Assembly: GCA_022827905.1 (NCBI GenBank)
Contig: JAJEIQ010000025.1
Coordinates: 1 to 50,972 of the forward strand
Direction of reading: 5' to 3'
Length of the DNA stretch: 50,972 nt
Source of the DNA: Pseudomonadales bacterium
Lineage (GTDB): Bacteria; Pseudomonadota; Gammaproteobacteria; Pseudomonadales; Azotimanducaceae
Shown: positions 9,894 through 23,701 of the stretch, piece by piece
How positions within the stretch are numbered: position 1 is the first letter of the stretch
Layout of the letters: every line of letters starts with the position of its first letter
The notes under the pieces: generated by a model
Told to the model about the DNA's origin: nothing
The model's input: the letters and a program-made list of their open reading frames with translations, nothing else
The model's database searches: none
Program-made: the position numbers and the translations under genes

Positions 9894-10991
9894 TCAACGA
9901 TAAAAGATCAGCCGTTTCCTCTTAAGTCGCCCGGACGATAGTTGCCCTGCCGGATGCCGACGTTGCTTTTCCTTCTTTATCGCGGTTGCCCGAGCCTTCC
10001 GGCGCTGATATTCCTCCGGCGACAATCGCTTCCGAAGCTTGCCCCAGTACTGCCGCTCCGTTGAAAGGTACTTATCACGATTGCAGGAAGGGCACGCAAG
10101 CACGATGTTGTTAAATCCGTCCGAGCCACCTCGGCTCAATGGGTCTAGATGCTCAACGTTGCGCTTCTCATCGATCGAGGCGTCGCAGAAGTAGCAGACG
10201 GCCTCCTGTACATCCCGCAGCAACTCGATATCACCAAGCGTATGCGAAGGCTCCTTAGAGGAACGGGTCCGCTCCTGTCGCCGTCGCCAAGCACCGCTTT
10301 TGCGGCTGTACAGTCGACGCCGATCTTTCTTTCGGAGGGCTTCCAATCTGCTTTCCCAAGTATTGCGGTCGACCCAATAGTCAAACCAATCGCGTAATTC
10401 TCTGGGCGCATTGCTCGGCTTGTCTTTGACGCATGGACACGCACTGAAATCCGCTTGCGGCGGTGCTCCGCAACTCCTGCAGTTGGCGTACTCGATAAGT
10501 GCTTCCGCGAAAGCGGGCAGTATTCCGACTTCGGGATCGTAGTTAATGGAAAAGTGCATGGTGCCGTCATCCATCACATCGGATACCGCCTCGGTCCAAG
10601 GAAGGCTCTCTGGATGGCCGTCCGGGGCAGCGTCCGTTCCTAGGCGATCAAGCGTTCCCTTAACGCCATCATGAACGTCGAAATTGGCTTGCGCTTGTTT
10701 AGCTGTTAACCACTCCCTGTACGGCCGGTAGGTCCGAAGCAGCGCAGAGCCTATTTTCTCCGGTCTACGCGACTGCAGATCGAACCCTTCGGCCGTCAAC
10801 CGATAGATGCCCCTGCGGACCCGTTCAACTAGACGGGCATGCCTCAAGTGGGTCAGACATCTGCCGACTCGATTTGCGAACTCCATTCGCCTTCCAGCGG
10901 GAAGCTTCTCGCGCGCTTCTGCGGTGGTCAGCCCCGCCACATATGCGGTGCGCGCCCAAACTTCAGAGAAAGCAACGTTTCGCCGGTAATC
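9894..10991 (-). pseudogene. Mrr-N/HNH restriction endonuclease, 3' part cut by IS630
   Basis: This fragment continues through 10991 with no start codon beyond GTG 10940. It encodes most of an Mrr N-terminal winged helix (AREKLPAGRRMEFANRVGR, then RGIYRLTAEG). A Cys pair segment CRSCGAPPQADFSACPC follows. The C-terminal HNH domain has CYFCDAS, EHLDPLSRGGSDGFNN and ACPSCNRDK. The missing first 20 codons are on the far side of the adjacent IS element (12201-12261). Removing the element and one TA copy restores a single 386-residue frame. The whole would be a methyl- or modification-dependent type IV-like restriction enzyme; the target is not readable. The fragment could still be expressed from GTG 10940 without the first winged-helix strands, but is probably inactive. 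Confidence 0.85.
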
Positions 10992-12118
10992 TAGTGTGCT
11001 GTCGCTAAATTGTCATTACATTCCTCAAGCGCCTCCCTGGCGCGCCGGATGCTGGCGAGGATCCTCTCGCCGGACTTGCGCCAGACGTAGCGCTTGGGGT
11101 TGAGGTTGTGCTCCGCCAGGTAGCCGTTGATGGCGCCGACGAGCTCGCCCACGCTGGCGAAGCTGCCGTCGCGCACGACGTCCACGGTGAGGTCGCGGAA
11201 GAAGCGCTCGACCAAGTTCATCCAGGAGCTGGAGGTGGGCGTGAAGTGCAGGGCGATGCGGTCGACGCCGTGCGCCTTGCGGTGGCGGCGGTTGTGCCAG
11301 TCCACCCAGGACCTGACCTTGGCGTGCTTGTGGGTGGCGTAGTTGTCGACGATCAGGTGCAGGCACACCCCGCCGGGGGTCTCCCGGTTGAGGTGGCGGA
11401 GGAAGTCGAGCCACTCCCGGTGGGTGTGCCGGGCGTGGGTGCGGCTGAACAGCTTGCCGTCCAGGTAGGACAGCGCGGCGAACAGCGTCACCGTGCCGTG
11501 GCGCTTGTAGTCGTGCGTCCGGGTGGCGCTGTGGCCGCGCAGGACGGGGAAGCCGGGCTGGGTGCGCTCCAGGGCCTGGCACTGGCTCTTCTCGTCGCAG
11601 CACAGCACCAGCCCCCGCTCCGGCGGGTCCAGGTACAGCCCGACCACGTCCCAGAACCGCTCCTCGAAGCGCGGGTCGTTCGACAGCTTGAACGTGCGCG
11701 TCACGTGCGGCTTGATGTCGTTGGCCCGCCACAGCCGCCGCACCGTGTCCTTGGACACCCCGGCCGCCTTGGCCATGCTGCGCACCGACCACCGCGTCCG
11801 GTTCGGCGGCGGCCGGGTGGCCCCCAGGATGATCCGCTCGCGCACCTCCGGCGCGATGGACGGCTTGCGGCCGCGGCCCCCGGCGTCCGCAAGCCCCGCA
11901 AGCCCCGCCTCGCGGAAGCGGCGCTCCCACCGGATCACCGCCGCGCGGCTGACGCCCACCGCCCGCGCCGTCGCCGCCTGGCTGAGGCCCTCCGCCCGAC
12001 GCAGGACGATCGACGCCCGCCAGTGGTCCCGCTGCGCCGCGGTGGGCCTTTGAACCACCGCCTCAAGCGCCTCGCGCTGATGCGCGGTGAGGGTCAGCAA
12101 AGGGGTCGGTCTTGGCAT
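10991..12118 (-). CDS. IS630-family transposase
   Basis: A 375-residue transposase with N-terminal helix-turn-helix domains (SQAATARAVGVSRAAVIRW and SMAKAAGVSKDTVRRLW) and a DDE catalytic core: D175 in CCDEKSQ, D258 in LIVDNYATHK, E304 in MNLVERFF. Length and motifs are those of IS630/Tc1-mariner type elements using a TA target. The frame is uninterrupted and probably functional. It starts at ATG 12118. The TAG stop is completed by the TA target duplication plus one flanking base, so the stop codon depends partly on the insertion site. Confidence 0.95.
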   Translation of the reverse strand: MPRPTPLLTLTAHQREALEAVVQRPTAAQRDHWRASIVLRRAEGLSQAATARAVGVSRAAVIRWERRFREAGLAGLADAGGRGRKPSIAPEVRERIILGATRPPPNRTRWSVRSMAKAAGVSKDTVRRLWRANDIKPHVTRTFKLSNDPRFEERFWDVVGLYLDPPERGLVLCCDEKSQCQALERTQPGFPVLRGHSATRTHDYKRHGTVTLFAALSYLDGKLFSRTHARHTHREWLDFLRHLNRETPGGVCLHLIVDNYATHKHAKVRSWVDWHNRRHRKAHGVDRIALHFTPTSSSWMNLVERFFRDLTVDVVRDGSFASVGELVGAINGYLAEHNLNPKRYVWRKSGERILASIRRAREALEECNDNLATAH

Positions 12119-14017: not shown

Positions 14018-14247
14018 CTGCAGGAACAATTCGCGGACCTAGCCCCGCTCAAGTGCGCTTTGCTGCGGTTTCACGACGAACTCGGTGAATTCCGTGAATG
14101 AAGGGCGGAACGCGCTTCCGGCCATGTTGCGGGACGCGACGCCGTCATGGATGTGCCTTCCGAGGGCGGTGCGCGGCGGACGGACATGGTTGCCCGGGCA
14201 GTCAAAGGCCTCGTCTCTGTTGCCTGCGGAAACCGAGACCGCTAAAC

Positions 14248-14277
14248 TCCGTCTTCACATATATATGTGAAGACGGA
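14248..14277. promoter_or_regulatory. 30-bp perfect palindrome, likely antitoxin operator
   Basis: Each 15-base arm reads TCCGTCTTCACATAT, so 14248-14277 is a perfect inverted repeat centred on an ATATAT tract. It lies 9 bases before the RHH antitoxin start (14287). Ribbon-helix-helix antitoxins bind palindromes over their own promoters, and the central TATATAT can double as a -10 box. It is read as an autoregulatory operator. Confidence 0.72.
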
Positions 14278-14286
14278 CGTCCCAAC

Positions 14287-14619
14287 ATGGCGAACAAGAA
14301 CACAACAATGAATCTTCCCGAATCCCTCATTGCCAAGGCCAAAGCCTATGCGGCCACCCAAGGCACCACCATGACGGCCATCGTGCGCAGCCATCTGGAG
14401 GCGGTCACGGCCGAGTTGGAACAGCCTGCGGAAGAACCTCTGCAAGCCTATTCAACGGGCATGATCGGACGTGATGAGGCCATTCGCCGCATTGGGGTCC
14501 GCGACTACGCCGGGTTGCTTGTGGCGCTGGGCGATGCGGGGCTCTCACCGCCTCGGCCGCCAGAGCACCAAATCGAAAACGAGGCGGCCACCTTCGCGCG
14601 CATCTGGGCCGCCACATGA
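14287..14619 (+). CDS. RHH-type (CopG/DUF6364-like) antitoxin
   Basis: A 110-residue protein. The N-terminal ribbon-helix-helix pattern is NTTMNLPESLIAKAKAYA-A-TQGTTMTAIVRSHLE (about 4-40). A C-terminal segment IGRDEAIRRIGVRDYAGLLV (about 58-78) probably wraps the toxin. It starts at ATG 14287 directly after the 30-bp palindrome and overlaps the PIN toxin gene by ATGA. It should repress its own operon and neutralise the toxin. Confidence 0.85.
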   Translation: MANKNTTMNLPESLIAKAKAYAATQGTTMTAIVRSHLEAVTAELEQPAEEPLQAYSTGMIGRDEAIRRIGVRDYAGLLVALGDAGLSPPRPPEHQIENEAATFARIWAAT

Positions 14620-15209
14620 AGCGTTGCGTTCTGGTCATTCCCGACGCTGGGCCGCTGAACAGCCTTTGGGTCGCCGATCGGCTGGACCTTCTGCTGCGCT
14701 TGAGCATGCCCATCGTGGTTGTGGACGCGGTTTACGATGAGGTCACGAGCGATCTCAGGTATCCAAAGGACGCGGCGGTCAAGGCGTTCATCGATGGGCA
14801 CAGCCCCCCATTCGTCATCGAGCAAACCGACGTCGGCGCCTATGAACGGGAGCGGCGCCGGGCCGGCGAGCCGCCCAAACGCAACATCGGTGAACTGGCG
14901 ATGATGGACTTCATCAGCGATGCTGGGGGCGTTCGGCGATATTTGGAGTCAAGCGACCCCCTTCTGGTCTTGTTCGAGGATCGCGGGCTGCGGGTTTTTC
15001 GCAAGCCTCCGAACATGCATCTGCTGTCCACGGTCGGGCTTTTGCGGGGGATGGAAAAGGCCGGCGTGATTCGCTCCGCGGACGCCGTCATTCAGGAGAT
15101 GACGAACCCGACCAAATCAGATCGGCGACCACAGGATCGCCGGGCGTTCGCTGATCTTCCCGCCGGGATCGATGAGCCGGCAGACATTGGCAGTCATTGG
15201 TCACCATAG
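14616..15209 (+). CDS. PIN-domain ribonuclease toxin
   Basis: A 197-residue PIN-domain protein. The motifs are IPDAGPLNSLW (first acidic residue D10), a Glu in YDEVTSD near 42, a central GELAMMDF, and SSDPLLVLFEDRGL for the last acidic residues. It is longer than VapC toxins (about 130), belonging to the larger PIN toxins. The 4-base overlap with the antitoxin marks translational coupling. The last 16 bases overlap the 3' end of the opposing CMD-like gene (15194), a tail-to-tail overlap. Likely an RNase that cuts tRNA, rRNA or mRNA. Confidence 0.85.
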   Translation: MKRCVLVIPDAGPLNSLWVADRLDLLLRLSMPIVVVDAVYDEVTSDLRYPKDAAVKAFIDGHSPPFVIEQTDVGAYERERRRAGEPPKRNIGELAMMDFISDAGGVRRYLESSDPLLVLFEDRGLRVFRKPPNMHLLSTVGLLRGMEKAGVIRSADAVIQEMTNPTKSDRRPQDRRAFADLPAGIDEPADIGSHWSP

Positions 15210-16291
15210 CCGTTAATGCCCAGCTCGCTGCGCAGGTCGGCGGTCAGGGCTTCCATCGGGGGGTCCAGCGGGATGCCGGTGCCGTCGGCGATGCGCACCA
15301 TGCGCTGAAAGTTGGCGATGACGCCGGCGGCGTCGATCATGGCCGGCTCGTCCAACTCGCTGAGCACCTGTTGCCGGGCTGCGGCGATGGCTTCGGCATC
15401 GTCGTCCAGGCTGACGTCGGCGAAGGCCAGCAGGGCTTGGCCGCTGGGCACGCTGGTTGGAACCGCTTCGTCGGCAACGATGGCGGTCAAGTCCACATCC
15501 TCTCCACTGGTCTCGGCGCTCACACGGAGCATCATGGCGTGGGCGCTGGTTCAGTAGAAACACTCGCTCAAGGAAGACACGCGTCCGGCCAGCAGCTCAA
15601 TCTGGCAACGGGAAAGGGCGCTGTTCGCGTTGTCGTTGGGAGTGCGGATGCTGCGCAGGGGCAGGTATTGGGCGTCGCTCAAACGGAGCAGCATGCGCAC
15701 CGAGTCAGGCACCAGGCTCATGGCTGAAATCACGTTGGCCGAGCGCCCGCCCGGGTAGAGGTCGGCTTCCGACTCGCCCGCGTGCTCCGGCTGCACGGTG
15801 TGCACCCAGGCGCCGGAGTCGGCCGCGCCGGGCGGACGGTAGCCGCTTGGCGAACCGGCTACGGCGGATGGCAGGGGCTCCAGCGGGAGGCCCAGCGCGC
15901 GATGAAAGCCATCGATGCTGATGGCCGCCACCACCACGCCCAGGAGTTCGACGTATTGCTCATCGCTCACCCCGGCGGCGTTGACGCCATCGAGCCAGCT
16001 TCGGGATAGACGCGCCGGGTCGGTGGTCACCCGGTGTACGGTATCGATGACGACGTCCGGCAGGTGGGTGGTGCTGAGGTGGGGGCCGAAATCCCCGTTC
16101 GGGGACAGGGCTTCCCGCCGTCTTCGGCAAGCCTCGCAGAAACGGGCGTTGCGCGTTTCGGCGACTAACGCGATCCGGTCCTCGCTCGACCACCAACAGC
16201 CGGGCTCGGCGATCATCTGCCAGACGGCCCGGTGCGCATCGGGAATGTCCTCCCGGATGGCGTATCCGCTCTTCGAATAGTCAAATGCCAT
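15194..16291 (-). CDS. Carboxymuconolactone-decarboxylase/AhpD-like probable selenoprotein
   Basis: One reading frame of 366 codons interrupted only by UGA at 15553-15551. The first domain has C52-x-x-C55 (RFCEAC). The second reads ECFY-UGA-TSAHA: in AhpD/CMD peroxidase-like proteins this site is C-x-x-C followed by His, so the UGA stands exactly at the second redox Cys (position 247). The 118 downstream codons stay open and family-like (MMLRVSAE onward). In the mRNA a hairpin GCUC-CGUGU-GAGC (15530-15518) begins 20 bases after the UGA, with its loop 24 bases after it, in the range of bacterial SECIS elements. I read it as CxxU selenocysteine. The alternative is a TGC/TGT-to-TGA nonsense mutation giving a 246-residue product. 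Function would be thiol- or selenol-based peroxide reduction or disulfide exchange. Confidence 0.7.
15518..15530 (-). promoter_or_regulatory. Candidate bacterial SECIS hairpin
   Basis: On the coding (minus) strand, a 4-bp stem GCUC/GAGC closes a CGUGU loop. A U-G pair and further weak pairs extend it outwards past an A-C mismatch. The loop starts 24 bases after the UGA codon and has G in its second position, both compatible with SelB-binding hairpins. An alternative CACG/CGUG stem overlaps it. The stem is short, so this is supportive only. Confidence 0.4.
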
Positions 16292-16370: not shown

Positions 16371-16456
16371 CGAGGGCAAGATGCCCTCGAGCCGGCGCGT
16401 GGCGCCGATTCTCCACGCATGCCCTCGAGCCGGCGCGTAGCGCCGTTTCTCCACGC
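16371..16456 (+). repeat. Palindromic core plus two 38-bp tandem repeats
   Basis: The core CGAGGGCAAGATGCCCTCG (16371-16389) is the same hairpin found in arrays at 25, 29 and 31 kb. It overlaps two tandem 38-bp units (16381-16418 and 16419-16456) that begin ATGCCCTCGAGCCGGCGCGT and differ at two positions. The array fills the gap between the CMD-like gene and the 5-alpha-reductase-like gene. Confidence 0.85.
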
Positions 16457-16474: not shown

Positions 16475-17233
16475 ATGATTGATCTATTGCCGTCACTGAA
16501 CCTCACCACTTGGATTTGGATTGCGTTTGCCCCGCCCGCCTTCATCGTGTTGATGGTGGGATGGGACCCGGTCGGGCGCGTCGGCGGCGGGGGCTTCGGC
16601 TTTCGCGTGGAAAGCCGGCTCGCCTGGATTCTCATGGAGTTGCCGGCGCTCGCCACCTTTCCGCTGATCTACCTCTCAAGCGGCAATCTGCATGTGGTCG
16701 GCAATGTCGCGGTCGTGCTTTGGTTGGCCCACTACGGACACCGCACCTTCGTCTGGCCTTGGTTCGTCCCCAAAAAGGGCAGCACGGTGCCGATCACGAT
16801 GATCGCGATGGCGGTGTTCTTCAACGGGATCACCGGTGGCCTGATCGGTTGGTTCATGGGCTACCACGCCGACTACGGAGTGGACTGGCTAGCCGACCCC
16901 CGCTTCCTGGCCGGGCTGGCGCTGATGTTCGCAGGGGCGGCGCTCAATGTCTGGGCGGACTATCGGCTGCTCGATCTGCGCAAGGCAAGCGGGGGGCAGC
17001 GCGTGATGCCGCAGGGCGGGGCGTTCGAACACCTGGCCTGCCCCAATCTGGCGGGTGAGATCCTTGAGTGGATTGGGTTTGCGCTGCTGACTTGGTCGTT
17101 TCCCGCCTTGGCCTTCGCCATCTGGACGGTTGCCAACTTGGCGCCTCGGGCATTCTGGCGCCGCAACCAGTACCGGGAGAGCTTTGCCGACTATCCCAAG
17201 GGGCGGGCTGCGCTGATTCCCAAGTTGTTGTGA
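16475..17233 (+). CDS. Steroid 5-alpha-reductase (SRD5A)-family membrane protein
   Basis: A 252-residue integral membrane protein with about six hydrophobic segments. It shows family signatures: WPWFVPKKGSTVPITM near 100, the NG--GG-IG---G loop, and the C-terminal NQYRESFADYPKGRAALIPK that resembles the NADPH/steroid-binding end of 3-oxo-5-alpha-steroid 4-dehydrogenases. It would reduce a delta-4 double bond in a 3-keto steroid or a related enone or isoprenoid. ATG 16475 is preceded by TAGAAT (16463-16468), so the transcript may have little or no leader. The genes beyond it (DUF1214, sulfotransferase, SCP2) are convergent. Confidence 0.85.
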   Translation: MIDLLPSLNLTTWIWIAFAPPAFIVLMVGWDPVGRVGGGGFGFRVESRLAWILMELPALATFPLIYLSSGNLHVVGNVAVVLWLAHYGHRTFVWPWFVPKKGSTVPITMIAMAVFFNGITGGLIGWFMGYHADYGVDWLADPRFLAGLALMFAGAALNVWADYRLLDLRKASGGQRVMPQGGAFEHLACPNLAGEILEWIGFALLTWSFPALAFAIWTVANLAPRAFWRRNQYRESFADYPKGRAALIPKLL

Positions 17234-17248
17234 GCGCCGCGCCCGCCG

Positions 17249-18301
17249 TCACCAAGTGAGCAGTTCAGCCGTTGGCGTCTCCGGCATCTCGTCAGCGAGC
17301 AGCCAACGGATGAAGATGATCGCTTCGTCGTAGCCCGCCGTGCTGATCCAGTTGTGCTCGGCTGGCTGGTGGCTGACGTGGACCACGTAGCTGCCGTCGG
17401 GCTCGGGCGTTGCCGTCTGCTTGTTGAGGCAGACCGGGTAGTCCCTGAAATTGGTGGACTGCATCACGAAATTCCAAGTCTGCAACCCCCAGTAGCAGGC
17501 CTCCGGCGAGCGGAAACGGAGCCTTAAGTACTCATTTTCCTTGAGCCGGTAGCGGCAGAAGCAGTAGATGTTGTCCACGGTGCCCCAGCCGCCTTGGTCC
17601 GCATCGAACTCGAAGGGCGGCAGGAAGACGTTGATGGGGAACTCAACCGGCAGCGGCGCGATCCAGGTGGTGCATTGGAAGAACATCGCCATGGTGCGGA
17701 TGCGCCGGGCCAATTGCTCGTCGGTCAGCGGCAGTGCCGCAGGCTGAGCGGCGACGTTCTCGATGCTCAGCCGGCTTTCCCGTGAGTTTGGCCGGTCGAA
17801 GAAATACTCTCGGGTGAAGAGCGTCACGGCGTCTTCGTCGATGCGGAACTCGTTGGGGCCCTTGGGGTTCGGGGTGAGCTTGATCTCGAAGGAGCCGTCC
17901 TCGGCGAAGACGATGTCGCGCTGGTTGACGTTCAGCGTCACCCGGTCGGCTAGCTCGCCGTGGGGGTCGCCGCCGTAGAGGCAAAAGCTTAAGTAGCAAC
18001 TGTCGAAGCGCTGCCCCTTGATCAGGTACTCCTGGTCGCCCCGCACTTGGGAGAAGTAATAGACCGCATCGACGTTGTCGCCGTACAGCTTGCGGTTGCC
18101 GTCGGAGAGCAGCATGAGCTCCGGCCGCAACGGATCGTTGTGCAGGTAGAAGTCCACGGCGGTCTGCAATAGGTGGAAGATGTGCTGGTAGCCATCGACC
18201 TGGCCTTGGTGGTCCAGCCCCTTTTCGGGGTCCAAAAAGGTCTGGTCCGCGTCCCGGATGATGTCCAGGAACTCGTTCAGGGCTTCCTTGCTTTGCAACA
18301 T
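17249..18301 (-). CDS. DUF1214-domain protein
   Basis: A 350-residue protein. Its C-terminal ~110 residues (LRLRFRSPEACYWGLQTWNF through HNWISTAGYDEAIIFIRWLL) fit DUF1214, a beta-sandwich domain of unknown function. The N-terminal part (about 1-100, DADQTFLDPEKGLDHQGQVD) matches proteins often found beside sulfotransferases in lipid or steroid gene groups. No signal peptide is seen. It begins at ATG 18301, 41 bases after the sulfotransferase stop, and is probably co-transcribed with it and the SCP2 gene. Confidence 0.8.
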   Translation of the reverse strand: MLQSKEALNEFLDIIRDADQTFLDPEKGLDHQGQVDGYQHIFHLLQTAVDFYLHNDPLRPELMLLSDGNRKLYGDNVDAVYYFSQVRGDQEYLIKGQRFDSCYLSFCLYGGDPHGELADRVTLNVNQRDIVFAEDGSFEIKLTPNPKGPNEFRIDEDAVTLFTREYFFDRPNSRESRLSIENVAAQPAALPLTDEQLARRIRTMAMFFQCTTWIAPLPVEFPINVFLPPFEFDADQGGWGTVDNIYCFCRYRLKENEYLRLRFRSPEACYWGLQTWNFVMQSTNFRDYPVCLNKQTATPEPDGSYVVHVSHQPAEHNWISTAGYDEAIIFIRWLLADEMPETPTAELLTW

Positions 18302-18342
18302 GGGGCTTCCTCCCTCCTCGGTGGTTTGATGGGTCTTGCGTG

Positions 18343-19611
18343 TTAGGCGAGCTTGCGTTCGGGGGCCTTGTCCAGACCGCCCAGGAAATCGAGATAGCGG
18401 CGGTAGTGCGTTTCGACTTCGGCGGGCTGGACGCCGATCATGTCCAGGGAGTATTCGTGCTTGCCGTGCTTGTCCTTGGCTTCTTGGCGCAGGAAGGCTT
18501 CCATGCGGCCGGCGCTGCCCGCATCGAGGCGCCAGCCGAACCGGTCGTAGATCTGCCGCACCACCGCCATTTGGTCCACCACGAAATCGTCGAACAGCAC
18601 ATCGACGATCTGATCCTCCCGGTTGAGCCGCTGGCGGTCCTCGAGGAATCGCTCAAAGTAGCGCGCCCAGAGCCGCAGCTGCTCGTGGCCGGACCGCTCG
18701 ACCGCCTCGTGGTTGGAGTACAGGGACCGCGTCGAGGAGATCAGGCTGGCCAGTGACGGCACGACGTAGGCCGGATGGCGGTGGGTCATGATGATCCGGG
18801 CGTCGGGATAGACGTCGAACAACGCTTGCAGGCGCATGAGGTGCACCGGCGACTTCAGCAGCCATCTTGAGGTGCGCACGCCGCCGGATTGCAGGAATTG
18901 CAGGAACCGCCGGTGCCAGCGGAAATTTGCGGCTTGGTCGGCCGTCTCCAGAAACCACTCGCTGTAGTCGGCCAGGTAGGCCTGGGCCATGTACTGAAAG
19001 CTGGTGAAGTTCAGCGCCATCACCCCGACGCACTCCTGGGGCGAGTCCGCCTCCATGTAGTGTTTCTTGCGGAAGTCGGGAACCAGTTTGAAGAGCTGAT
19101 CGAACTCGGTGCGAATCGTGTCGATGCGGTCGTTGTGTCGATAGCTTTCCGGCGTCGGCGCAGGGTGCGGCAGCAGGCATTCCCAACTCAGCGGCGAGCG
19201 GTGCGCGGCGTCTTGGTTCAGAAGCGCCTGCAGTATGGATGTCCCGGAGCGCGGCATGCCGATGATGAACAGGGGTTCGGTGATCGGATCGTCGAGGATC
19301 TCCGGGTGCTCAGCGATGGCCTTCTCCACTTTGAACCGGGCGTCGGCCATTCGCTGGATCAGGGTCTTGAAGGCGAACTTGCCGAAGGCGTTCAGCCGGG
19401 CGTCGGCCTTAGTTGACGCGATCAACCGATCAAGCCCCTCGGTCAAGCCGTCGTCGGCATACGCATGGCCGGCCGTCTCAGCCGCCTTGGCCAGTATCCG
19501 GCGCCGGTCCAACTCGAAGAGCCGGATGCCGCATCCTTCGATCAAGGCACCTGCGGCGTTGATGGCCTTGAGCGTCGTCGAATGCTCAATGGCGATCGGC
19601 GAGTTGTACAT
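18343..19611 (-). CDS. Sulfotransferase family protein
   Basis: A 422-residue PAPS-dependent-type sulfotransferase. The 5'-phosphosulfate loop is FIIGMPRSGTSILQALL (about 114-130). The 3'-phosphate site is ARIIMTHRHPAYVVPSLASL (about 270-290). Sulfotransferases of this long soluble form are common in marine proteobacteria beside lipid-handling genes; the acceptor is unknown. ATG 19611 lies 6 bases after the SCP2 stop, and DUF1214 follows, so SCP2, sulfotransferase and DUF1214 look like one operon. Confidence 0.9.
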   Translation of the reverse strand: MYNSPIAIEHSTTLKAINAAGALIEGCGIRLFELDRRRILAKAAETAGHAYADDGLTEGLDRLIASTKADARLNAFGKFAFKTLIQRMADARFKVEKAIAEHPEILDDPITEPLFIIGMPRSGTSILQALLNQDAAHRSPLSWECLLPHPAPTPESYRHNDRIDTIRTEFDQLFKLVPDFRKKHYMEADSPQECVGVMALNFTSFQYMAQAYLADYSEWFLETADQAANFRWHRRFLQFLQSGGVRTSRWLLKSPVHLMRLQALFDVYPDARIIMTHRHPAYVVPSLASLISSTRSLYSNHEAVERSGHEQLRLWARYFERFLEDRQRLNREDQIVDVLFDDFVVDQMAVVRQIYDRFGWRLDAGSAGRMEAFLRQEAKDKHGKHEYSLDMIGVQPAEVETHYRRYLDFLGGLDKAPERKLA

Positions 19612-19617
19612 CGCCGA

Positions 19618-19920
19618 CTAGGTGAGCTTCTTGAGCTTGGTGGCGATCGACATATCCCCCTTCACCTTGATCTTGCCGGAGGCGACGGCCATGAACGGCT
19701 TGATCTCCCGCCTTTGCAGCTTGCCGTAGGTGTCGAGCGACATCCGCACGGTGCACTCCGCCTCGATGTCCTGGCCGGTGACGACGGCCACCTCGTTGCT
19801 GTCTCCGGACCCGTCGATCAGCATGCGCTCATCGTCGAGGCAGAACATCAGGCTCTTGCCGAGCGGGTCGATCTGGCTGGCCTTCTCGTTCATGTCGGCG
19901 CAGATTTCCTCAATGGTCAT
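19618..19920 (-). CDS. SCP2 sterol-binding domain protein
   Basis: A 100-residue single-domain SCP2 (sterol carrier protein 2-like) protein with the usual alternating beta/alpha pattern. Its end, AVASGKIKVKGDMSIATKL, matches the family signature in which the GKIKVKGD-type segment closes the lipid tunnel. It would bind an acyl-CoA or sterol-like lipid and may present it to the sulfotransferase encoded next. Start ATG 19920 is followed by no other candidate. It is the promoter-proximal gene of the three-gene set. Confidence 0.92.
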   Translation of the reverse strand: MTIEEICADMNEKASQIDPLGKSLMFCLDDERMLIDGSGDSNEVAVVTGQDIEAECTVRMSLDTYGKLQRREIKPFMAVASGKIKVKGDMSIATKLKKLT

Positions 19921-19932
19921 TGCAAACCCTCC

Positions 19933-21303
19933 CTAGGTGCTGTGGTTCAAAGCGCGCCATTGTTCGGGCAGCGGCGCTTGCCGCTCGACCCGGGCGTGGA
20001 GCGCACCGTCGTGAAAGTTGACTTGGATGCTGTCGCCGGCTTCCACCGCCGCGGCGTTGGTGATGGCGCCCGCTGTGTCGGTGCCTGTGCCCGTGACGAT
20101 GGCGAATCCCCGCGCCAGCGCCTGCAACGGACTGACCGCCTCAAGGGTGCGGGCCAGGGCACTGAGCCTATCCGCGTTCTGCGTGAGTTGGGCTGCCATG
20201 CGCCGTTCGGCGCGGCCCTGCAAAGCGGCCACCGCAGCGGTTAGAGCGGCGATGCGCGGCTCCGGGCGTTGCCGCTCAAGCCCCTGCTGCAGGCTCGCGA
20301 AACGGGTCCGCGTACGCTCCAGACTGTTCCCCAAGCCCAGACGCAGGCGCGTCTCGAGATCGTCGGCCCGCTGCATCAATTGCAGCAGGCGGTCGCGGGG
20401 ATTGACCAGCCGCGACCGCAGGGCCGCATGCTGGTGGCGAAGCAATTCGAGCCGGTTGTTCGAGGCGGACATGAGCCGCTGCCGCCAGCGGCCGAGATCC
20501 TGATTCAGGGCGGCGGCGTCCGGCGTGATCAACTCCGCCGCCGCCGACGGCGTGGGCGCCCGAAGGTCGGCGGCGAAGTCGGCGATGGTGAAGTCGGTTT
20601 CATGGCCGACCGCCGACACCGTCGGCACCGGGCAGCGGGCGATGGCCCGGGCCACCGCCTCTGAGTTGAAGGTGAACAGGTCCTCGAGGCTGCCGCCGCC
20701 GCGGGTCAGCAGCACCAGGTCGGGCGCCAACCCCGGCACCCGGTTCAGGGCATCGAGAATCTGCGGCTCGGCTTCCGCGCCTTGGACGGCAACCGGCAGC
20801 AGGGTGACCTCAAGCAGCGGAAAGCGGCGCCGAATGACGCTCAGCACATCCCGAAGCGCGGCACCGGAAGGCGAGGAGACCACGGCCAAATGGCGCGGAT
20901 AGGCCGGCAGGGCGCGCTTGCGCTCCTCGGCAAAGAGGCCCTCGGCGGTGAGGCGGGCCTTGAGCGCCTCGTAGGCGGCGCGCAAGGCGCCTTCCCCGGC
21001 CGCCTCCATGTGCTCCACGATGACTTGGAATTCGCCCCGGTTCTCGTACAGGCTCACCCGCCCGCGCAGCAGCACTTCGCCGCCGTCGCTGGGCTGCATT
21101 CGGCACAGGCGGTTGCGGTTGACGAACATCGCGCAGCGCACCTGCGCGGCGTCGTCCTTCAGGGTGAAGTACCAGTGGCCGGAGCGGGGCCGGGCGAAGT
21201 TGGAAATCTCGCCGCGAATCCAGACGAGGTTGAAGCGCTCCTCAAGCAGCCGCCGGGCGCTTTGGTTGAGGTCGCTGACGGAGAGTACGGTGGGTTCGGT
21301 CAT
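19933..21303 (-). CDS. xseA: Exodeoxyribonuclease VII large subunit
   Basis: A 456-residue XseA. The N-terminal OB-fold (VLSVSDLNQSARRLLEERF, then VWIRGEISNF and GHWYFTLKD) is followed by the catalytic core (VVSSPSGAALRDVLSVIRRR; LTRGGGSLEDLFTFNSE; VGHETDFTIADFAADLRAPT) and a coiled-coil tail. With XseB it degrades single-stranded DNA; xseB is not in the window. ATG 21303 is chosen because upstream codons run into bamA. It follows bamA directly (7-base gap), an unusual partner for this gene. Confidence 0.97.
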   Translation of the reverse strand: MTEPTVLSVSDLNQSARRLLEERFNLVWIRGEISNFARPRSGHWYFTLKDDAAQVRCAMFVNRNRLCRMQPSDGGEVLLRGRVSLYENRGEFQVIVEHMEAAGEGALRAAYEALKARLTAEGLFAEERKRALPAYPRHLAVVSSPSGAALRDVLSVIRRRFPLLEVTLLPVAVQGAEAEPQILDALNRVPGLAPDLVLLTRGGGSLEDLFTFNSEAVARAIARCPVPTVSAVGHETDFTIADFAADLRAPTPSAAAELITPDAAALNQDLGRWRQRLMSASNNRLELLRHQHAALRSRLVNPRDRLLQLMQRADDLETRLRLGLGNSLERTRTRFASLQQGLERQRPEPRIAALTAAVAALQGRAERRMAAQLTQNADRLSALARTLEAVSPLQALARGFAIVTGTGTDTAGAITNAAAVEAGDSIQVNFHDGALHARVERQAPLPEQWRALNHST

Positions 21304-21310
21304 GGACCCT

Positions 21311-23701
21311 CTAGAAGGTGCGGCCCAGCTCGAACTGAAAGCGCTCCTCCTCGTCGATGGACTTAGTGTTGAAGGGCTTGGCAATGCCGAAGGTCATCGG
21401 CCCCATGCCGGTCAACCAAGTGATGCCGAAGCCGACCGAGTAGCGGAACTCATCCAAGCTGAAGCCAAAGCAGTTGATGCTGGTTTCCGGGCAGTTGGTG
21501 TTGAAGACGTTGCCCGCATCGACAAACATGACCGAGCGGAACTGCCGGTTGTCCTCCACGAACGGCAGGTTGAAGATGATTTCCGCTGAGGCCTCCACGA
21601 GCAGATTGCCGCCAAAGGGGTCGCCGCGGTCGCGGAAGAAGCCCGACGGCAACGGGTTGCCGTCCCGGTCGGTGGAGGGGTTGGTGGTTCTCGGACCCAA
21701 GGTCGATTGCTCGAAGCCGCGGATGGAGCCGAAGCCGCCGGCGAAGAAGTGCTCATAGAACGGCAGACCCTTGGTGCCGCCGTAGCCGCCGCCGTATCCC
21801 ACCTCGGTGCGGAAGCGCAGCGCCATGTTGCCGATGAAGGGGAAGTACTGCTCGCCCCGGTAGGTGAGCTTCCAGAACTGCAGGTCGCTGCCGGGGACCG
21901 AGGCTTGCAGGCCGAGGGTCTGGGAGCGGCCCCGGGTGGGAAACAGGCCCCGGTTGAGGGTGGTGCCCTGCCAGGCGAGATTGAGCTTCAGGTTCAGAAA
22001 GTCGTCGCCGTTCTTCTCTAGGAATTCGGTGATCTCCAATGCCGGGAAGCGGCCTTCGGTCAGTTTGGTCTGCTCTATGGTGCCGCCGAAATTGATTCGC
22101 TGGGTCTCGCCGATGGGGAAGCCGAAGGTGATGCCCAAGCCAATGGCATCGGTGCTGTAGCGGGCGATGTTGCGCTCGTCGAAATCCAGGCGGCGGTAGT
22201 AGGCGTTGTAGCCGCGGCTGATGCCGTCGAGGGTGTAGTAGGGGTTGAAGTAGTTGAAGCTCGCCGACTTCTGGTAGCTGGAGAACGACAGGCCGACGCC
22301 GAGGCTGTTGCCGGTGCCGAGCACGTTGTTCTCCTGGTAGTTGCCGCCGAGCACCAGCCCCCAGCCCTGGCTGTAGCCGAGGGTGGCGGAAATGCTGCCG
22401 GAGGGCTGCTCCTCCACGTCGAAGGCCACGTCCACTTGGTCGTCGGTGCCGGGCACCGGCGGGGTCTCCACGTTCACTTCCCGGAAGTAGCCCAGGCGCT
22501 CCAGACGCACCTTGGAGAGGTCGATCTGCGCCGTGGATGCCCAACCGCCCTCCATCTGGCGCATTTCCCGGCGCATCACTTCATCCTGGGTGACGCGGTT
22601 GCCGGCGAAGCTGATGCGGCGCACGTAGGCGCGCTTGCCCGCATCGATCATGAAGTCCACATCGACGTTGCCGGTCTCCTCGTCCACCAAGGGCACCCCG
22701 GAGGCGGATGCGAAGGTGTAGCCGGCATTGCCAAGCGCCCCTTCCAAGCGGTCTTCGGTGGCGGTCAGCAGTTGTTGGGAAAACACTTGGCCGGGGGCAA
22801 CTAGGAACAGGCGCCGCAGATCCTCCGGCTTCACGTCGTTGAGCTGGCCGAGCAGATTGACCTCATCGACCACGTACTTGCTGCCTTCCTCCACGTTCAT
22901 GGAGATATAGACCTGGCGCTTGTCCGGGGTGATGCTCACCTGGGTGGAATTGATGTCGAACTCGACGAATCCCCGGTCCTTGTAGTGGGACTCCAGCTTT
23001 TCCAAGTCGCCGGAGAGCTTTTCGCGGCTGTACTTGTCGTTGTTGCGGAAGAATGAGAAGAGCGTTGGATGCTGAAGCTCCATTACGTCAAGCAGCTCAT
23101 CCTCGGAAAAGGCGTTGGCGCCGACGATGTTGATGTGGCGGATGCCCGATGTCTTGCCTTCTTCGATGTCGATGCGGATGGCCACCCGGTTGCGGGCCAG
23201 TTCCTCCACCTCGGTGTCGATGGCGGCGCCGTAGCGGCCTTGGGAAACGTATTGGCGCTCGAGCTCCAAACCGACCCGCTCCAGGGTCGCCTGCTTGAAT
23301 ATCTCGCCTTCGCTCAAGCCCTGCTGGGTGAGCCCCTCCAGCAGCGCATCGGTCTTGATGGCCTTGTTGCCCTCGATCTCAATGGACTCGATGGCGGGCC
23401 GCTCGACCACGGTGACCACCAGCACGCCACCGTCCCGGGCCATGCGGATGTCGTCGAAGTAACCGGAGGCGAACAGCAGGCGAATCAACTGGCGGATGGC
23501 CACTTCATCGACCCGGTCGCCGACGTTGACCGGCAGCGCGTTGAACACCGTGCCCGCGGAGACCCGCTGCAGCCCCTGCAGGCGGATGTCGGCGATGGTG
23601 AAGGCGTCGGCGCGGACCGGCGCGGCGGCGCCCAAGGCCACCGCAAACGCCGCTGCGCCGAGCATGGCGCGCAGCAGGCGGGTTCCCCGGGCGAGCAGCA
23701 C
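21311..23701 (-). CDS. bamA: Outer-membrane protein assembly factor BamA
   Basis: A 796-residue BamA with an N-terminal signal peptide (LGAAAFAVALGAAAPVRA), five POTRA domains (starting FTIADIRLQGLQRVS) and a 16-strand barrel. The barrel includes the conserved lid loop region (GGFGSIRGFEQSTLGPR, the VRGF motif as IRGF) and ends in FQFELGRTF with the terminal aromatic residue. It inserts beta-barrel proteins in the outer membrane. The frame starts at GTG 23701, overlapping the rseP stop by one base; an internal ATG 36 bases later is a possible alternative. rseP-bamA order is the normal one, but skp and lpxD do not follow. Confidence 0.98.
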   Translation of the reverse strand: MLLARGTRLLRAMLGAAAFAVALGAAAPVRADAFTIADIRLQGLQRVSAGTVFNALPVNVGDRVDEVAIRQLIRLLFASGYFDDIRMARDGGVLVVTVVERPAIESIEIEGNKAIKTDALLEGLTQQGLSEGEIFKQATLERVGLELERQYVSQGRYGAAIDTEVEELARNRVAIRIDIEEGKTSGIRHINIVGANAFSEDELLDVMELQHPTLFSFFRNNDKYSREKLSGDLEKLESHYKDRGFVEFDINSTQVSITPDKRQVYISMNVEEGSKYVVDEVNLLGQLNDVKPEDLRRLFLVAPGQVFSQQLLTATEDRLEGALGNAGYTFASASGVPLVDEETGNVDVDFMIDAGKRAYVRRISFAGNRVTQDEVMRREMRQMEGGWASTAQIDLSKVRLERLGYFREVNVETPPVPGTDDQVDVAFDVEEQPSGSISATLGYSQGWGLVLGGNYQENNVLGTGNSLGVGLSFSSYQKSASFNYFNPYYTLDGISRGYNAYYRRLDFDERNIARYSTDAIGLGITFGFPIGETQRINFGGTIEQTKLTEGRFPALEITEFLEKNGDDFLNLKLNLAWQGTTLNRGLFPTRGRSQTLGLQASVPGSDLQFWKLTYRGEQYFPFIGNMALRFRTEVGYGGGYGGTKGLPFYEHFFAGGFGSIRGFEQSTLGPRTTNPSTDRDGNPLPSGFFRDRGDPFGGNLLVEASAEIIFNLPFVEDNRQFRSVMFVDAGNVFNTNCPETSINCFGFSLDEFRYSVGFGITWLTGMGPMTFGIAKPFNTKSIDEEERFQFELGRTF

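Follow-up and report, generated by a model that had tools for sequence, protein, structure and literature searches.

The stretch of DNA analysed here (the window, 50,972 nucleotides) contains on its minus strand, from 16291 down to 15194, a reading frame of 366 codons in which the only stops are a TGA at codon 247 (15553-15551) and the terminal TGA at codon 366. The two open reading frames on either side of the internal TGA (15551-16291 and 15194-15535) lie in the same frame with 15 bases between them. The initial annotation had described one frame broken by UGA alone, with the two open stretches 15 bases apart; its coordinates and counts were correct on re-reading, and the spacing was confirmed from the positions of the open reading frames. 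The UGA lies within ECFY-UGA-TSAHA, at the place of the second Cys of the pattern C-x-x-C-x-x-x-H (in its longer form E-x11-C-x2-C-x3-H), which we take to be the AhpD-type catalytic pattern. The following features were assigned, with counts referring to rows of an alignment of related genes described below.

15194..16291, minus strand: almost certainly an AhpD-related CxxU selenoprotein gene (NF041238); 365 residues with Sec at 247, one frame with a single internal TGA
15551..15553, minus strand: in-frame UGA, the presumed Sec codon 247; TGA in 103/103 distinct rows spanning this codon, the window's own among them
15551..15562, minus strand: C244-x-x-U247 redox motif (CFYU), with C244, Y246 and the Sec codon in 103/103
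15596..15598, minus strand: E232, the Glu of the AhpD-type E-x11-C-x2-U-x3-H pattern; 103/103
15539..15541, minus strand: H251, the His of the same pattern; 103/103
15517..15531, minus strand: SECIS-like hairpin UGCUC-CGUGU-GAGCG; core pairs in 99/103, C-G/T-A covariation 90/13, compared with a synonymous shuffle
16127..16138, minus strand: N-terminal C52-x-x-C55; Cys at both places in 96/97 rows with residues there, the exception being L183

Family assignment

The read-through product matched the NCBIfam model NF041238 "AhpD_rel_CFYUT", which is of the equivalog type, with 456.8 bits (cut-off 175), residues 12-362 covering positions 1-355 of the 357 in the model. When the two halves were tested separately, the part before the UGA scored 297.8 bits and the part after it 134.3 bits, so that the stretch downstream, described earlier as family-like, is recognised unaided. 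The ECFY-TGA-T of the gene corresponds to the CFYUT motif of the model, with the Sec codon in place. Like TIGR01926, CMD (PF02627) and AhpD (6k40, 3c1l, 2pfx, 2oyo), the window protein has in its C-terminal part the pattern E-x11-C-x2-C/U-x3-H and the stretch that follows it, but the match is limited to this part and remains below the cut-offs (49.5 bits against a curated 81.8 for TIGR01926; 22.7 bits against 23 for Pfam CMD PF02627, which was matched by the read-through product only). A profile of 22 sequences matched, in its C-terminal part, solved chains of AhpD and peroxidase-related proteins, of which the best was 6k40 (E 3.6e-11); in this alignment the CxxC of 6k40 falls on the CxxU, with a Cys of this distant AhpD opposite the Sec. 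The N-terminal half with C52xxC55 matched no solved chain in the same profile search, and a structure prediction from four sequences reached a mean pLDDT of 34.3.

The family itself has been described before. In the available text of a 2026 review, NF041238 is given as the AhpD-related CxxU selenoprotein that was 'hypothetical protein 1' of the Sargasso Sea metagenome (PMC13188914). According to the available part of the Sargasso Sea study, 'hypothetical protein 1' was represented by four Sec sequences that have a CxxU motif and a hairpin, and all of the new Sargasso selenoproteins had a hairpin past the TGA (PMC1088965). The window gene resembles these in its full-length match, CFYUT, CxxU and hairpin, and no feature that would set it apart was found in comparison with what these two texts give. 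However, Table 2 of the latter counts Cys homologues of 'hypothetical protein 1' (7 from the Sargasso set, 5 from 260 genomes; PMC1088965), whereas the 103 rows collected here include no Cys form. As NF041238 is equated in PMC13188914 with the 'hypothetical protein 1' of PMC1088965, the gene is best regarded as adding a well-supported member to a known selenoprotein family, and it is almost certainly a sound member of this already named bacterial redox family. NF041047, the AhpD-like TIGR01926 and the CMD-like PF02627 selenoproteins share the CxxU and the relationship to AhpD with the window protein, but are listed in the available text of the review as distinct families (PMC13188914); NF041047 gave no match to the window protein up to E 1. 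In the literature searched, no paper was found that uses the NCBIfam short name AhpD_rel_CFYUT or that brings together selenoproteins, selenocysteine, sponges and metagenome-assembled genomes.

The UGA codon and the hairpin in related genes

The row set was drawn from 104 sources (100 regions, the window and L052-L054) and comprised 108 hits, of which two were left out as identical duplicates (L100, L127). From the resulting 106 distinct rows, three fragments not spanning the Sec site (pieces of L184, L186 and L190) were dropped, leaving 103 rows from 102 sources. Five matches stayed outside this set: G685:C35, G778:C58 and G734:C32 have one TGA each, and G717:C151 and G739:C138 are stop-free and end before the Sec site. 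Scanning of named genome contigs yielded three orthologues in the metagenome-assembled genomes SB0675_bin_3, COS4_bin_55 and RHO1_bin_72, which are 85, 70 and 70% identical, respectively, and all have TGA at codon 247; tRNA-SeC was found in all three genomes.

Identity to the window protein ranged from 43 to 85% in the 21 relatives aligned. E232, C244, Y246, the Sec codon, H251 and L255 were invariant over the 103 rows, and a Cys form at codon 247 was found in none of these orthologous rows covering the site. The initial annotation had placed the UGA at the second redox Cys of a CMD/AhpD-like protein and proposed an alignment of homologues at this codon; the alignment upheld the placement, with the E-x11-C-x2-U-x3-H pattern kept in every row. 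Relatives with TGC or TGT here and a decayed tail, which it had named as evidence to the contrary, were not seen among the 103 rows. A few single copies carry other defects: L101 has a second in-frame TGA where 89/106 rows have Gly, the L146 copy (G721) has an extra TAG, and in L184, L186 and L190 the gene is split into two pieces in different frames. Each of these may reflect decay or an assembly error.

Counting the T of the UGA as position 1, positions 24-27 of the hairpin pair with positions 33-36. The window has five pairs (four core pairs and a U-G) that close a 5-base loop, CGUGU, with G as its second base. The hairpin is found at a fixed distance past the UGA, and all four core pairs are kept in 99 of the 103 rows. 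Without exception, pair 27-33 is either C-G (90 rows) or T-A (13 rows). Pair 24-36 is G-C in 87, G-T in 11, A-T in 2 and other in 3, and pairs 25-35 and 26-34 are formed in 102/103 and 103/103, respectively; the second loop base (position 29) is G in 103/103. Codon choice is restricted at the same place. The codon of Leu255 is CTC or CTT in 103/103 and never CTG, which in the rest of these genes is the most frequent Leu codon (37.3% of 2916), and codon 258 is never TCN, although TCN makes up 59% of the 2102 Ser codons elsewhere in these genes.

In a synonymous-codon shuffle of 2000 draws, which treats related rows as independent, the four pairs formed in a mean of 13.1 and a maximum of 28 of 103 rows, as compared with the 99 observed. 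A tree built without the hairpin columns requires a minimum of 5 events to explain the C/T change, and 4/4 independent supported pairs were compensated (sign test p 0.125, a value below 0.05 being unreachable with so few events, about 5). Folding of the 45 bases from the UGA in the window did not give the hairpin as the lowest-energy structure, but it became the lowest once the first 12 bases were omitted. Across the rows, the core pairs were formed by energy alone in 49/102 for positions 1-45, 82/102 for 13-45, 88/103 for 16-42 and 95/103 for 18-42. A search of Rfam gave no SECIS-type match; its two matches were both far below their gathering scores and neither was a SECIS. In the available part of PMC1088965, the bacterial SECIS is characterised as a hairpin right after the UGA with a small apical loop containing G, and the hairpin fits this wording, though it is not the lowest-energy fold in every row. 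The hairpin at SECIS-like distance that had been noted from the window is thus present and conserved, but short and not always the preferred fold. A function of the hairpin at 15531-15517 in Sec insertion is strongly supported by these patterns.

Selenocysteine machinery and distribution of the family

The genome of the window (81 contigs, 96.76% complete) has selA (502.2 bits), selB (409.2 bits) and tRNA-Sec (75.7 bits), each above its cut-off, on the same contig (C47), where selA and selB overlap end to start and tRNA-Sec lies close by; ARAGORN also reported a tRNA-SeC with anticodon tca. A selD match of 262.4-265.7 bits (cut-off 125) on contig C64 is the C-terminal part of a 722-residue pyridine nucleotide-disulfide oxidoreductase fusion with a CGGC motif (L200, 2422-4590, minus strand). 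The fusion matched Nterm_to_SelD with 397.6 bits (cut-off 310) and, below the cut-off of 700, the TIGR04369 model fusion_not_SelD with 452.6 bits. It fits the Ndh-SelD fusions with a CxxC motif that are mentioned in the available part of PMC2398784. A search for the Sec genes had been proposed in the initial annotation, which regarded absence of selB and tRNA-Sec as speaking against its reading; both are present, together with selA and the selD-like fusion. For formate dehydrogenase (TIGR01553), the sole other Sec family searched, nothing above the cut-off was found in this genome. An integrase-like gene (L199, 5889-7070, minus strand; 181.1 bits, cut-off 434) adjoins the tRNA-Sec, which may have been used as an integration site.

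The family has a narrow distribution. Above its cut-off, NF041238 was detected in 1/274 genomes of the class and 1/398 of the phylum, both times in the window's own genome; at E 0.001, 62/274 genomes of the class draw matched, nearly all weakly. Among 195 near-relative genomes it was present in 80, own included, and 73 of these 80 have selA (E 1e-30 or better). From the seven others, G739, G751, G767 and G770 have a tRNA-SeC with anticodon tca, those of G751 and G767 scoring below the Rfam gathering score. In G734, G743 and G755 (77, 87 and 81% complete), neither selA nor tRNA-SeC was found, and their best tRNA-Sec-like hits are tRNAs for Leu or Arg. Over the 195 genomes, 73 have both the family and selA, 7 the family only, 35 selA only and 80 neither (Fisher p 1.5e-18, shared descent ignored); the corresponding numbers for the 120 genomes of the taxonomic family are 71, 7, 31 and 11 (p 0.016, shared descent likewise ignored). 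Several near-relative genomes hold two to four NF041238 matches, of which the full-length ones listed each have the TGA, and the family may therefore have expanded in this lineage.

Reading of the UGA and predicted chemistry

With a probability of roughly 0.95, the locus encodes a 365-residue NF041238 selenoprotein in which SelB and the hairpin direct insertion of Sec at UGA 247 to complete an AhpD-type redox site. The internal UGA is almost certainly read as selenocysteine; TGA in 103/103 rows, the Sec genes of the genome and the covarying hairpin all support the CxxU enzyme initially proposed, and the case for Sec is as strong as sequence evidence by itself can make it.

Other readings of the interrupted frame were weighed and rejected on the shared TGA, the genes ending in TGA and the span of NF041238 across both parts. 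A fresh nonsense mutation, in which UGA replaced a Cys codon and left a pseudogene, would be a simple event, TGA being one base away from TGC, TGT and TGG, and damaged-looking single copies do occur elsewhere (L184, L186, L190, L101 and G721). Such a mutation is nevertheless hard to reconcile with TGA in all 103 rows, at 43-85% identity in the 21 aligned relatives, or with a conserved tail and the presence of Sec genes, and it is left with next to no probability. The universal in-frame UGA would also be expected if UGA stood for a standard amino acid (Trp or Cys) in this genome or clade, with no SECIS involved. However, the selenoprotein gene itself and the selA, selB and selD fusion of the genome terminate in TGA, as do 5/9 of the checked window neighbours that have family support, and the tRNA-SeC with anticodon tca and the conserved hairpin past the UGA also argue against such a code, which appears extremely improbable.

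With an in-frame ATG 15 bases past the UGA (15535), the locus could also be read as two genes, the first encoding 246 residues and the second beginning at this ATG. The UGA, however, lies inside the invariant E-x11-C-x2-U-x3-H, H251 precedes this ATG and is kept in 103/103 rows, and NF041238 spans both parts, making two genes very improbable. More room, though still little, is left for a conserved hairpin with another role, for instance in RNA stability, given its small size and the finding that roughly half of the rows have a better fold for the 45 bases beginning with the UGA; its fixed distance from the UGA, the loop G at position 29 in 103/103, the covariation and the SelB in the genome speak against this and for a part in Sec insertion.

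If the selenoprotein reading holds, SelB with Sec-tRNA(Sec) would bind the hairpin at 15531-15517 during translation and selenocysteine would be placed at codon 247, giving a C244-x-x-U247-x-x-x-H251 site that, together with E232, forms part of a C-terminal AhpD/CMD-like domain. Glu, Cys and His have catalytic roles in AhpD, and AhpD and peroxidase-related enzymes show peroxidase activity with a reductase partner. By analogy with the family, the predicted redox chemistry at C244-U247 would likely be that of an AhpD-type thiol (here selenol) peroxidase or a disulfide or peroxide reductase. The selenolate would attack the oxidised substrate and C244 would then resolve the selenenyl intermediate, with Glu and His assisting proton movement.

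The additional N-terminal CxxC that had been pointed out is real, and as C52 and C55 are both Cys in 96/97 rows, this second CxxC is a trait of the family here and not of this gene alone. R47 (100/100 rows), H71 (95/99) and H86 (97/100) are conserved in the same region. C52-x-x-C55 probably passes electrons to the C244-U247 site, or else holds a metal. An internal duplication of two AhpD-like halves was considered, and hhalign aligned C52xxC55 with C244xxU247 in register (E 0.0098); it is not claimed because the hhalign probability was 4%. A two-site redox enzyme with an N-terminal CxxC and a C-terminal CxxU, whose Sec was never swapped for Cys in this lineage and which is a chief reason why the Sec machinery was kept, is an unlikely though conceivable reading, and was marked down slightly because Cys homologues are counted in the available part of PMC1088965.

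Under the ordinary code, 15194..16291 would be taken for a broken gene or two open reading frames, where almost certainly there is one selenoprotein gene. About 100 sequences of one lineage, with a Sec codon that is never Cys and a covarying hairpin, provide a useful set for deriving SECIS rules in these uncultured bacteria, and this NF041238 set also serves the question why some redox sites retain selenium.

Neighbouring genes were clustered over 102 loci, many of them on short contigs, using open reading frames of at least 110 residues. A conserved operon was not supported, as no neighbour cluster occurred in more than 23 of the 102 loci apart from one found in 57/102, which from its place and strand is taken for an antisense shadow of the selenoprotein gene. 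Genes with Steroid_dh, DUF1214, sulfotransferase and SCP2 domains, followed by xseA, lie at 16475-21384; DUF1214, sulfotransferase, SCP2, Steroid_dh and XseA recur in 2, 2, 1, 3 and 3 loci, respectively, all of the same genus. Since, among the loci examined, these neighbours are shared only within the genus, they give no firm hint of the substrate.

Upstream of the selenoprotein start, between divergent genes, two head-to-tail 38-base units that are 95% alike occupy 16381-16456, and no further match to the unit was found in the window at up to 3 mismatches. On the plus strand, 14098-15209 holds a DUF6364 gene, presumably antitoxin-like, and then a 197-residue open reading frame, which gave no Pfam or NCBIfam match. 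The 3' end of this frame and that of the selenoprotein gene, which runs towards it, share 16 bases. Elsewhere in the window, a DDE_3/helix-turn-helix transposase (10991-12118, minus strand) adjoins an HNH/Mrr_N gene at 9894-10940.
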